NCBI GenBank assembly: GCA_937928045.1
Contig: CALFWO010000032.1
Location: 1-64,000 of the forward strand
Length of the DNA: 64,000 bases
Direction: 5' to 3'
DNA from: an uncultured Saprospiraceae bacterium
GTDB taxonomy: Bacteria > Bacteroidota > Bacteroidia > Chitinophagales > Saprospiraceae
Position numbers and translations under genes: made by a program. Shown here one piece after another: positions 29,641 through 37,036 of this stretch (its first letter is position 1; every line of letters begins with the position of its first letter). A model generated the notes under the pieces. It saw only the letters and a list, made by a program, of their open reading frames with translations. It was not told where the DNA came from and did not search any database.

Positions 29641-30537
29641 ATGGAATTGTGCATGCAGAAATCTTCGTCTTCTGATAGATTAATTAATTGGTCCATTTTA
29701 ATATTGCTAAGTCTCGTTTGGGGTAGCAGCTATATCTTAATCAAAAAAGGTCTTGTAGCATTTAACCCCGTTCAATTAGCTTGCCTTAGAGTGAGTCTTT
29801 CCGGATTGGCTTTTTTTCCAATATATTTCATGTATCAAAGTAAAGTAGATTGGAGGAACTGGAAGTTCTTTCTTGTCGTTGGACTGGGAGGTACTTTTAT
29901 TCCTGCGTTTCTATATGCATTAGCGCAGACTGAACTGAATAGCTCAATTACTGGAGTACTAGGCGCACTTACTCCTTTGAATACCATTCTCATTGCAGTA
30001 CTTTTTTTTAACGTAAATGCAAAAAGAAATGAATGGTTTGGAGTAATCTTGGGGCTCATTGGCGCGGTAGTTTTGATATTATTCGGCTCCAGCATTGAAT
30101 GGCAAAATTCCTTGTTCTATGGTGCTCTGGTATTCATTGCTACGGCATGTTATGGCTTAAGTAGCAATACCGTCAAAGCAAAACTTCAAGATGTTAATCC
30201 GCTTGCCTTGTCTTCGGCAGCTTTTGTAATGATTGTTCCACCGGCTATTGCATTATTACCAATTATTGGAGTTCAAGATGTATTGGTGAATGATCCTTTG
30301 GGTTGGTCCTCACTAGGTTATATTACTTTGCTTTCATTGCTTGGTACTGCCATGGCCAGCATCTTATTTTTCTATTTAGTACAAAGAACCAATCCAATCT
30401 TTGCATCAACCGTAAGTTATCTAATTCCAATGGTTGCATTAGCTTGGGGACATGTAGATCAAGAAGTCATTGGGTGGGGGCATCTAGTTGGAATGATCAT
30501 TATACTGTATGGAGTTTATCTAACCCGCCAAAAATAA
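29641..30537 (+). CDS. EamA (DMT superfamily) transporter
   Basis: 298 residues with ten hydrophobic segments arranged as two EamA repeats. The first starts ILILLSLVWGSSYILIKKGL with the family WG motif; the second starts LFYGALVFIATACYGLSSN. Members export amino acids, nucleosides or other metabolites across the inner membrane; the substrate is not visible. The stop is 6 bp before the start of the SET-domain gene, so the two are very likely one operon. Confidence 0.9.
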   Translation: MELCMQKSSSSDRLINWSILILLSLVWGSSYILIKKGLVAFNPVQLACLRVSLSGLAFFPIYFMYQSKVDWRNWKFFLVVGLGGTFIPAFLYALAQTELNSSITGVLGALTPLNTILIAVLFFNVNAKRNEWFGVILGLIGAVVLILFGSSIEWQNSLFYGALVFIATACYGLSSNTVKAKLQDVNPLALSSAAFVMIVPPAIALLPIIGVQDVLVNDPLGWSSLGYITLLSLLGTAMASILFFYLVQRTNPIFASTVSYLIPMVALAWGHVDQEVIGWGHLVGMIIILYGVYLTRQK

Positions 30538-34640: not shown

Positions 34641-34675
34641 AAAAAAAGCCGGAAGCCGTTTAATACAACTTCCGG
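34641..34675 (-). terminator. Rho-independent terminator after the RHH-like/ParA operon
   Basis: CCGGAAG (34649-34655) and CTTCCGG (34669-34675) form a 7-bp GC-rich stem; on the reverse strand it is followed by a run of eight Ts. Confidence 0.85.
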
Positions 34676-34703: not shown

Positions 34704-35264
34704 TTATGCTATTCCTTTTTTGTAATCCTCGATCCATTGGGTAACAGCTTCTCCAATGATATCCTTCATAAAACGAGAATCCTTTTTAGAGATTTCTCTT
34801 AATTTTTCTAATTGTTCTTTAGAATATAAAAAGGTAACTCGTTTTTGATCTTTTTTGACTTGTATTTCCTCAGGTGAAAGATTTTGTGTGTTTCTAATTA
34901 AAGAATCCAATCCCATTCTTGGGCGGATTTTTCTTACACGAGCTGGAGCCGGCACTTTCTTTTCAGGTGCACTAGTTGCTTCAACCGTTTCTTTTTCCTC
35001 CTCTTGGAGTTGTTCCATTTTTTCTTGGAAAGCCTCCTGAAAAAGTTCTTCTAAATCTGAGTGAAAGTTCTTAGTATTCCGCTTGATTGATTTCTTTGAC
35101 TTTGTAGGCACTGTTTTTTTAGCCACCGTTTTTTTAGGAGCGACCAATGTAGCAGTATCCGTTTCGTCATTATTCAATAGCGGGTTTTCTTCCTGGAAAG
35201 ATTCTACTTCCGGGGTAAAACCAAACAGGCTATTTAAATCATTTGAAAATTTCTTTCTAGACAC
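34704..35264 (-). CDS. Putative ribbon-helix-helix DNA-binding partner of ParA
   Basis: 186 residues. The first 125 residues are low-complexity and charged (KKTVAKKTVPTKSKKSIKRN, then Glu-rich). The last 50 read KRVTFLYSKEQLEKLREIS and DSRFMKDIIGEAVTQWIEDY. A short strand followed by two helices fits the ribbon-helix-helix pattern seen in ParG/Omega/CopG-type proteins. It lies 27 bp downstream of the ParA gene, where a centromere- or cargo-binding partner would be expected. No ParB domain is present. It could bind the parA promoter or a parS-like site; the binding site is unknown. Confidence 0.65.
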   Translation of the reverse strand: MSRKKFSNDLNSLFGFTPEVESFQEENPLLNNDETDTATLVAPKKTVAKKTVPTKSKKSIKRNTKNFHSDLEELFQEAFQEKMEQLQEEEKETVEATSAPEKKVPAPARVRKIRPRMGLDSLIRNTQNLSPEEIQVKKDQKRVTFLYSKEQLEKLREISKKDSRFMKDIIGEAVTQWIEDYKKGIA

Positions 35265-35291
35265 AATCGCTAAATTTTTAAGGTGAGAAAA

Positions 35292-36077
35292 TTATTGAGC
35301 GATCGCCATTTTGACTGTATTGCCAGTCTTCTGGGTTCTTTCAATGATTTCTTTACTCAAACTCAAATAATCTTGAGCTCCTTTACTTCTTCTACTGTAA
35401 GCGAAAATGTCTTTACGCTGAGCAGGAGCTTCAGCTAAAGCAACGTTATCTCGAATTAATGTTCGGAAAACCTTGTCTCCAAAATACTTGTGAATAGTTT
35501 CTACAACGTCTCTGTTCAGAACTTTTCTGTGATCGTACATCGTTGCGATTACACCCCCCAGTTGTAATTGCTTGTTAAGACGGAAACGAACTTTGTCGAT
35601 AACTTGTTTGATCTTTGCCAATCCCTGTAATGCAAGAAATTCCGTTTGAAGCGGAATGTAAACTGCATCAGATGAAGTCAAAGCATTCAAAGTAAGCAAG
35701 CCTAATGAAGGCGGGCAATCAATGATGATGTAATCATAGATTTCTTTGATTGGATCAAAAAGTTCCTGAAGAATGTATTCTCTTCCAGCTTCATTGATTA
35801 GTTCCATTTCAGCTCCTGAAAGATCCAGGCTGGAAGTTACAACATCAAGACCCGGTTTAACATTGTAAGGAACCAGCTGTGATTCGCCACGAATGGCTTC
35901 ATAGATGGAAACTTTTTGTCTAGGAATACCGAGAGAAAGTGTAAGATTTGCCTGAGGATCCAGGTCGATTAAAATTACTTTTTTGCCCATTTCGACTAGG
36001 CCAGCGCCAATGTTAATAGCACTTGTCGTTTTACCCACACCACCCTTGTGGTTGAGTAACGAGATTACGTGTCCCAT
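35292..36077 (-). CDS. parA: ParA/Soj family ATPase
   Basis: 261 residues from the ATG at 36077 (MGHVISLLNHKGG). A longer frame to 36140 would add 21 unrelated residues. Deviant Walker A is NHKGGVGKTT (signature Lys11, Lys16). LIDLDPQANLT and IIDCPPSLGLLTLNA are the other nucleotide and switch motifs. ParA ATPases bind nonspecific DNA as ATP dimers and move chromosomes, plasmids or protein cargos. The downstream partner is RHH-like rather than ParB, which sets this locus apart from standard parABS. The S24 repressor gene is divergent upstream. Confidence 0.93.
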   Translation of the reverse strand: MGHVISLLNHKGGVGKTTSAINIGAGLVEMGKKVILIDLDPQANLTLSLGIPRQKVSIYEAIRGESQLVPYNVKPGLDVVTSSLDLSGAEMELINEAGREYILQELFDPIKEIYDYIIIDCPPSLGLLTLNALTSSDAVYIPLQTEFLALQGLAKIKQVIDKVRFRLNKQLQLGGVIATMYDHRKVLNRDVVETIHKYFGDKVFRTLIRDNVALAEAPAQRKDIFAYSRRSKGAQDYLSLSKEIIERTQKTGNTVKMAIAQ

Positions 36078-36234
36078 AGTGTTTGTTTTTCTGTTGGTGA
36101 TTATAAATGCATAGTGAAAATCTACATTCACCCAATTCAAATGCTAATATAACTAAATATATTCTGTCCAGAGAGCCAAACGCTTAGTAAATAAAGAAAA
36201 ATCTACCCTACTTTTTGTAAAAAGGATAAAATAC

Positions 36235-36290
36235 AATTTGTTTAAACAAATTATTTGTTTTAAATTGCGCTCAAGAAGTATTATTTGTTT
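36235..36290. promoter_or_regulatory. Palindrome and direct repeats upstream of S24 repressor gene (putative operator)
   Basis: AATTTGTTTAAACAAATT (36235-36252) is a perfect 18-bp palindrome. ATTATTTGTTT occurs exactly at 36250-36260 and again at 36280-36290, 30 bp apart or about three helical turns. All three share the TTTGTTT core. They lie 15-70 bp before the repressor ATG at 36305 and could also affect the divergent parA gene. Confidence 0.55.
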
Positions 36291-36304
36291 ATAAAAATCA
36301 TCCT

Positions 36305-37036
36305 ATGATAAGACAAGATCGATTAGAATTGAATGAAAGATTTCTCAAAGTGTTCCAATTACTACAAGAACGAGGAGATGTCGTAATGAATGATCGAAAT
36401 GGAAAAGGTATGGGGGATTTTGCAGAAAAAATCCTTGGAAACCGAGCCTATGGACATATTGTTCGCGCCTTTTTAAACAAAGGGGATCGTAGAGTAATCG
36501 ATTATCATCAAGCTCGAGCAGTCTGTAGAGAGTACAATGTAAACGAGGCCTACCTGGTTGACGGAATAGGTACCCCTTTCGGATTTGATCTACCCAAAAG
36601 TTTGTCTGGGCCGGGTGCTCCCAAGGGAAATATCCTTTTTACAACAATTGCAGCTTTTGCAGGATCTGGAGTCGAAGCCACCGGCGGACAAGCAGTTGAA
36701 GACAATCTTTATTATGCCATTCCTGGAATCTCAGGATCAGGATTAGTCGCTTTTCCTATTGAAGGAAATAGTATGGAGCCGCAAATCATGCACATGGATA
36801 CGATCATTTGTAGAGAAATTGCAGGAGTTCATGACATCAAAGACAATGAGATTTACGCAGTCAAATCTAATGGTAGCATGTGGGTCAAGCATGTTCAAAA
36901 AATAGAAAACGAACGAGGACAAGTCACAGCCTTGCGTTTAATTTCAACCAATCATTTTGAATATGATCCATTCGAAGAAGATGTGACTCCAGAGACAAGA
37001 TTATACAAAGTCATCAAACGAATTTGTAACGTTTGA
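36305..37036 (+). CDS. S24 family LexA/CI-like transcriptional repressor
   Basis: 243 residues. The N-terminal about 95 residues are helical and DNA-binding-like (NERFLKVFQLLQERGDV, GDFAEKILGNRAYGHIVRAF, EYNVNEAYLVDGIGTPFG). The C-terminal S24 peptidase domain has catalytic Ser156 in EGNSMEP and Lys195 in MWVKHV. A likely self-cleavage site is Ala119-Gly120 in AAFAGSG. Proteins of this type are cleaved when RecA filaments form, or act as phage-like CI repressors. It differs from canonical LexA (no standard N-terminal winged helix recognised). It is divergent from parA, with AT-rich repeats before its start suggesting autoregulation. Confidence 0.88.
   Translation: MIRQDRLELNERFLKVFQLLQERGDVVMNDRNGKGMGDFAEKILGNRAYGHIVRAFLNKGDRRVIDYHQARAVCREYNVNEAYLVDGIGTPFGFDLPKSLSGPGAPKGNILFTTIAAFAGSGVEATGGQAVEDNLYYAIPGISGSGLVAFPIEGNSMEPQIMHMDTIICREIAGVHDIKDNEIYAVKSNGSMWVKHVQKIENERGQVTALRLISTNHFEYDPFEEDVTPETRLYKVIKRICNV

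Follow-up and report, generated by a model that had tools for sequence, protein, structure and literature searches.

Why would a bacterium that already has a canonical ParABS system carry a second parA gene, followed not by parB but by the gene of a protein with a ribbon-helix-helix (RHH) C-terminus? This question is raised by a locus of an uncultured Saprospiraceae bacterium (GenBank assembly GCA_937928045.1, 5.18 Mb) that lies in the 64,000 nucleotides analysed here (the window), which are part of contig C32 (CALFWO010000032.1). The first-pass annotation had described this ParA (ParA2 in the following) and the RHH-like protein after it (the partner), and it gave the right coordinates and order for both (Table 1); the two genes are 27 bases apart, and the partner length depends on a GTG start. 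The arrangement recalls plasmid type Ib partition, as in ParF-ParG of TP228 and delta-omega of pSM19035. We propose, with a probability of about 0.62, that ParA2 and its partner are a domesticated plasmid-type ParA/RHH partition module which is vertically inherited on the chromosome beside ParABS and in which the partner acts as a multivalent adaptor.

The pair is a clade-wide chromosomal module of Saprospiraceae. A genome scan with ParA2 gave 129 relatives, the best 80 of which were kept as named loci and are labelled Saprospiraceae, Saprospirales, Lewinellaceae, Chitinophagales or, more broadly, Bacteroidota or Bacteroidia. Among these best 80 of 129, the two loci where the partner does not directly follow ParA2 are contig ends, with 103 and 2 bp left, and in the loci of relatives it was found 3' of ParA in 21/22, the sole miss being also a contig end; the RHH-like protein is therefore paired with ParA wherever the contig allows. 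The partner is present in 37 of the 61 genomes of the family, and canonical ParB in 56 of the 61 and in 35 of the 37 partner-bearing ones. Across the phylum, 14 of 395 genomes gave a partner match at E ≤0.001, the three strong ones being in the family (the window's own genome included); profile matches outside the family are weak, mostly RHH, and some of them are beside other ParAs. On a midpoint-rooted tree built from the canonical ParB and ParA of 55 genomes (ParB alone for 8) the partner distribution takes two changes; the tree lacks the other 6 of the 61 genomes, five without a ParB match and one not fetched. The same genome has a separate parABS, a canonical ParA 42% identical to ParA2 with an adjoining ParB on contig C3, and the single ParB_N match of this genome is on another contig than ParA2. 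The partner itself has no ParB_N domain in a Pfam scan. Furthermore, in genome G520 the partner and canonical ParB are on the same 4.35-Mb contig. The window's genome also encodes a further short ParA-like ATPase with SNSKGGVGKS (L004, contig C33), and in other Bacteroidota genomes a small RHH-like protein is encoded near further ParA genes (L035-L038), possibly as part of mobile-element systems.

Where does this pair come from? The best plasmid matches to ParA2 are 60-62% identical (Tenacibaculum, Flavobacterium, and Adhaeribacter), followed by Lawsonia (57.5%) and Bacteroides (about 56%); 26 canonical chromosomal ParAs, each with a ParB-like N-terminus after it, are 41-50% identical, and 48 phage records carry relatives of up to 55%. 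Nineteen plasmid records were chosen by hand from 895 matches at 1e-30 (75 at 1e-60), near-duplicate pairs among them being those of Lawsonia, the abalone Flavobacterium, and Phocaeicola/B. theta. Many of these plasmid ParA genes are followed by that of a short protein in which one N-terminal docking-like motif precedes an RHH domain (MSKKNFTGGLNSLLG... in Tenacibaculum, for example). When 18 genes beside plasmid ParAs were scored against the profile of the chromosomal partners, 7 matched at ≤1.8e-11 and 3 more at ≤1.5e-5 in this 18-sequence search; an 11th plasmid partner, of Flavobacterium CBA20B-1, was recognised by eye in the following gene. The candidates from the Smac51, Geobacter, Hymenobacter, Haliscomenobacter, Mucilaginibacter, and Pedobacter plasmids reached 0.002 or worse, and a tblastn search of the plasmid collection with the window partner itself gave no match up to E 1. 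In a ParA tree of 92 sequences, which included every second of the 80 loci, the chromosomal clade (Shimodaira-Hasegawa-like approximate likelihood ratio test [SH-aLRT] support 100) is joined by 13 plasmid and 2 sister-family ParAs (87) and by 4 more plasmid ParAs (91). The direction was presumably from plasmid to chromosome. That a plasmid-type partition module has come to lie on a chromosome, as the first-pass annotation proposed, is well supported by the plasmid homologues of both proteins and by the ParA tree, and it is also backed by the separate ParAB and the contig shared in G520. The checks which that annotation had named as able to overturn its proposal did not do so, given the second ParAB, the pairing of partner and ParA in relatives, and the predicted RHH fold. 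Two sister-family ParA orthologues, L048 and L049 (genomes G465 and G047), are 59-64% identical, and one is beside a DUF4129 gene; no partner was found in their fetched flanks nor, by profile, in the two genomes.

ParA2 matches Pfam AAA_31 (E 2.7e-56) over residues 3-172 of 261, its Walker A motif starts at residue 11, and it lacks an N-terminal helix-turn-helix (HTH) domain. The Walker A lysines and the catalytic Asp are kept in 80/80 named loci, over which the residues of ParA2 were compared, and so are the equivalents of L150, L152, L155, and L192 of the ParB pocket and of Y81, E82, D110, and E117 of the R13 site (positions from PMC12462528).

Neither Pfam nor NCBIfam has a family that the partner matches above cut-off. 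A profile search of the PDB with its C-terminus gave eight matches up to E 10, three of them unrelated and five RHH proteins: ParG (1p94) came first (E 0.0035), with ORF56, E73, and CopG twice, ORF56 and E73 being proteins which we take to carry the RHH fold. SegB is not among these eight matches, though it may be a distant homologue. In an AlphaFold2 model made with 58 sequences, residues 141-186 form two helices with ten-residue block means of 85-96 in predicted local distance difference (pLDDT), the overall predicted template-modelling score being 0.31 and the ribbon strand being unassigned in this monomer; short helices were also placed at all three motifs described below, with high confidence only for helix 67-96. 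In VIA-align nearly all of 38 rows are RHH proteins (CopASO with a Z of 6.9, PutA, MatP, CdbA, CopG with 5.5, and ParG with 4.5), these rows being Foldseek's own candidates and a Z below 8 being weak alone. R142 is invariant and T144 is found in at least 90% of the 58 aligned partner rows. The partner C-terminus is, by profile, model and fold comparison, a predicted RHH domain, as the first-pass annotation had suspected.

Phage Arc-like repressor families of PHROGs also match this domain (E 0.0013 and 0.0018), which would fit a partner that is mainly a transcriptional repressor and that ParA2 assists as co-regulator, partition having been lost; in addition, some plasmid partition proteins autoregulate. 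We consider this improbable, as the ParA catalytic residues and most of those of the ParB pocket (L187 and V116 excepted) are kept in 80/80, the docking-like motif has been multiplied and not lost, and the conserved upstream repeats go with the S24 gene and not with parA.

Table 1. Position of the module and of the features around it in the window.
Feature	Position	Strand	Remarks
ParA2, ParA-family ATPase, 261 aa	35292..36077	(-)	No N-terminal DNA-binding domain; deviant Walker A KGGVGKTT
Partner (adaptor) protein, 186 aa	34704..35264	(-)	GTG start; directly 3' of ParA2 in 78/80 loci
Motif 1, residues 6-14, FSNDLNSLF	35223..35249	(-)	Putative ParB-like ParA-docking motif; corresponds to the one N-terminal motif that plasmid partners have
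Motif 2, residues 67-75, FHSDLEELF	35040..35066	(-)	Putative docking-like motif; located in the window by the motif-1 matrix, shuffle p 0.005
Motif 3, residues 115-123, core GLDSLI	34896..34922	(-)	Putative docking-like motif; by eye resembles GGLDSLIQST of a Bacteroides plasmid partner
RHH domain of the partner, residues 141-186	34707..34844	(-)	Predicted by profile, model, and fold comparison
Terminator-like hairpin 3' of the partner gene	34649..34675	(-)	2 in the region vs 2.7 expected from shuffles
S24 LexA/CI-like repressor, divergent	36305..37036	(+)	Neighbour of the module
Repeated ATTTGTTT/AAACAAAT sites	36229..36301		Perfect palindrome 36236-36251 included; putative S24 promoter/operator

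We aligned the window partner with 57 hand-chosen sequences of the 78 partner loci (58 rows); the 21 left out include L092, L097, and L131, with misplaced starts, which were kept in the profile used for scoring the plasmid candidates, and the partial L013 had been left out of the first alignment. The aligned partners have three copies of a nine-residue motif, in which positions 1, 5, 8, and 9 are hydrophobic in 58/58 rows (motif 1) and in 57/58 (motif 2), whereas in motif 3 positions 5, 8, and 9 are so in 58/58 and position 1 in only 5/58. In 53 of the 58 partners, the linker holds another match to a matrix made from motif 1 that scores above shuffles. The motifs fit the ParA-binding motif of ParB at these hydrophobic anchors (1, 5, 8, and 9), and they are putative ParA-docking motifs on this ground. 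A charge swap between Lys162 of ParA2 and the acidic position 6 of the motifs was also considered; it was given up, since position 6 is N, S, D or A in plasmid motifs and their ParAs (L269, L270, L271, L274, L276, and L285) carry the same Lys.

All these features can be joined in one scheme. ParA2-ATP dimers would be bound to the nucleoid, and the partner would dimerise through its RHH domain and bind DNA sites. Its disordered N-terminal part would offer three docking motifs per chain, six per dimer, which would fill the ParB-peptide pocket of ParA2, tether the partner, and stimulate ATP hydrolysis, and the partner-bound DNA would be moved or spaced along the nucleoid. We infer the binding of motif to pocket, the ATPase stimulation, and the DNA binding of the partner. 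The cargo would most likely be distant chromosomal sites, by analogy with archaeal SegB, which binds sites scattered over the chromosome (PMC12284271). A more specific version, which we hold only tentatively, is that of a second RHH-based system that organises or segregates the chromosome beside ParABS, a bacterial counterpart of SegAB that was recruited from a plasmid and has six docking motifs per dimer.

Several observations weigh against this scheme. In ParA2 the equivalent of pocket residue L187 is Lys in 80/80, that of V116 is Met or Leu, and that of R238, presumably a DNA-binding residue of ParA, is Ala, Ser or Thr in 80/80, so that peptide and DNA binding could differ from those of ParABS; among the 19 plasmid ParAs, the same Lys is found in 9, the R238 position is non-basic in 18, and the E82 position is Gly in 13. 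The central Arg or Lys that ParB needs for ATPase stimulation is absent from the partner motifs (K/R at position 3 in 1/58 rows for each motif), although a K/R lies at most three residues before motifs 1, 2, and 3 in 58, 58, and 52 of the 58 rows, respectively. A matrix from 26 order-level ParBs misses the partner motifs (p<0.05 in 7/58 and none below 0.01; 1/58 when limited to the N-terminal 25 residues), and the motif-1 matrix, when run on ParB N-termini, does not pick out the ParB motif there (2 of the nine best matches listed, of 26). As the matrices fail both ways, the likeness to ParB lies in the spacing of the anchors and not in a sequence score. Moreover, the AlphaFold2 helices at motifs 1 and 3 are of low confidence, the Foldseek E-values for the RHH domain are above 1, and the node of the ParA tree that unites all non-canonical ParAs has a support of 62. 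Finally, no binding site of the partner was located at the chromosomal loci, where AGTA/TACT upstream of 75 of them was observed 130 times vs 116 expected (2/75 at p<0.05) and where clusters of AGTAA, in the window as in the 80 loci, reach at most 4 per 120 bp, as controls do; sites of another type than AGTA may exist.

These words come from the plasmids. AGTA and AGTAA, the two words tried, were picked after viewing the plasmid sequences, and one or the other exceeds shuffles upstream of parA in 6 of 11 plasmids (Tenacibaculum, Flavobacterium pA5BP1, Adhaeribacter, B. theta, and two B. finegoldii plasmids), with no excess in those of Lawsonia (between genes), P. salanitronis, Mucilaginibacter, Pedobacter, and Hymenobacter. 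Since the chromosomal loci have no such excess, the sites of the partner are elsewhere, changed, or absent. Of 89 regions of all kinds, 5 have repeated 8-mers at ≤1 in 100; that of the window is the S24 repeat. Period-9 iterons, seen by eye in Tenacibaculum (z 3.4), were rejected as unspecific: other plasmid regions have z ≤1.9, and over the 75 chromosomal upstream regions z averages 0.5 at lag 9, with similar values at lags 10 and 12. In another part of the window (29892-30070) there are up to seven AGTA/TACT words per 120 bp, 15 Markov controls reaching 6, in or beside a gene that resembles an EamA transporter by eye.

The lack of plasmid-type repeats, together with the enlarged linker, could also mean that the cargo is a protein, in which case the RHH domain would only dimerise or bind DNA non-specifically and ParA2 would space a protein assembly on the nucleoid, as McdAB does; partners with charged disordered N-termini serve many protein cargos (PMC10241942). 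This seems rather unlikely to us, given that the RHH domain is kept, with its R142 and T144, and that no cargo gene is universally linked, the commonest neighbours with an evident gene being S24 (35/80 loci) and a cluster represented by a DUF3137 protein (33/80), some loci being truncated.

How does the proposed domesticated module relate to known systems? With plasmid ParA-RHH pairs (ParF-ParG, delta-omega, and the counterparts of B. thetaiotaomicron p5482, Tenacibaculum, and Flavobacterium) it shares an HTH-less ParA followed by an RHH partner with an N-terminal tail, and the annotation of one Bacteroides counterpart reads 'plasmid partition protein ParG'. It differs in being chromosomal, clade-wide, and without AGTA excess at the locus, and in a partner of 150-194 residues with three motifs (58 rows) vs 84-122 residues with one motif in the 11 plasmid partners. 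We have not filed it under plasmid type Ib because a plasmid location and local centromere repeats were looked for and not found. Archaeal SegA-SegB, also a chromosomal ParA with an RHH partner, is by analogy the nearest functional model, although SegB is missing from the PDB matches. Canonical ParABS shares the ParA fold, the mostly kept ParB-peptide pocket, and the motif anchors, but its partner has the ParB_N domain that is lacking here, it is separately present in the same genome, and ParA2 departs from it at L187 and R238. McdAB and other ParA/MinD protein-cargo systems likewise have an extra ParA and a dedicated partner with a disordered charged N-terminus (PMC10241942), but the window partner has a predicted RHH fold and no universally linked cargo gene.

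To judge from titles and abstract openings of the open-licence PMC literature, a chromosomal RHH partner of ParA has not been described previously in bacteria, and the partition proteins of bacterial chromosomes were placed in the HTH class in 2016 (PMC5002424). Should the module serve to segregate or organise DNA of the chromosome, bacteria would have a chromosomal ParA system whose partner is an RHH protein, contrary to the 2016 statement. It would also be an example in nature of a plasmid system recruited to the chromosome, with docking motifs gained by its adaptor. Furthermore, the valency, the specificity, and the cross-talk of two ParA systems in one cell would become testable.

The S24 gene remains to be placed. 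The first-pass annotation had noted it behind repeated AT-rich sites and suggested a DNA-damage-responsive control of the module. The sites are indeed above chance: AAACAAAT, which was picked after reading the sequence, has 4 copies in the 227-bp intergenic region vs a shuffle mean of 0.07, and 0/500 shuffles reach 4. The product matches Peptidase_S24 (E 2.4e-10), and its sequence appears to have the Ser/Lys and Ala-Gly features of self-cleaving repressors, with Ser156 in 64/64 aligned sequences, Lys195 in at least 95%, and Ala119-Gly120 in 63/64; the catalytic Lys was assigned by analogy with LexA, and Lys187, the first candidate, is Lys in only 38/64. The LexA model TIGR00498 found nothing in the genome (it detects 9/14 controls, 6 over cut-off). 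In 35 of the 75 loci with at least 1.1 kb upstream S24 is divergent, at 181-1398 bp, and 34 of the 61 family genomes have both S24 and the partner, 3 the partner only, 1 S24 only, and 23 neither (Fisher p 1.5e-12). These data could suggest that the three genes are one unit in which S24 is a DNA-damage switch controlling ParA2 and its partner.

We regard this as very improbable. The repeat TAAAACAAA is found upstream of S24 in 22/25 unlinked copies and in 4/4 linked ones, whereas in the 170 bp upstream of parA it is found in 1/40 loci without an adjacent S24 and in 6/35 with one; the repeats follow the S24 gene, not parA. The palindrome has one occurrence in the genome, the local one, even with up to one mismatch allowed, and parts of the repeats presumably fit the Bacteroidota promoter (TTTG, TAnnTTTG). 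Control by DNA damage was rejected as an account of the repeats, because they follow S24 even when it is unlinked. The co-occurrence was set aside as a clade effect because it takes only 2 tree changes for the partner and 4 for S24. In addition, S24 is on the same strand as parA in genome G031, and for the 19 plasmid loci the gene table, which is incomplete, lists no S24 gene in flanks of 1.5-2.5 kb. Of the three-gene block, ParA and the partner stay together, S24 being adjacent in 35/75 loci, and the suggested DNA-damage control is unsupported.

Two minor observations concern the neighbours. The cluster represented by the DUF3137 protein lies 3' of the partner (as at L153:4617-5720). Two S24 homologues at E ≤1e-20 are present in G018, G024, G028, G030, G035, G498, G512, and G520, and they are in tandem in G018, G024, G035, and G498.

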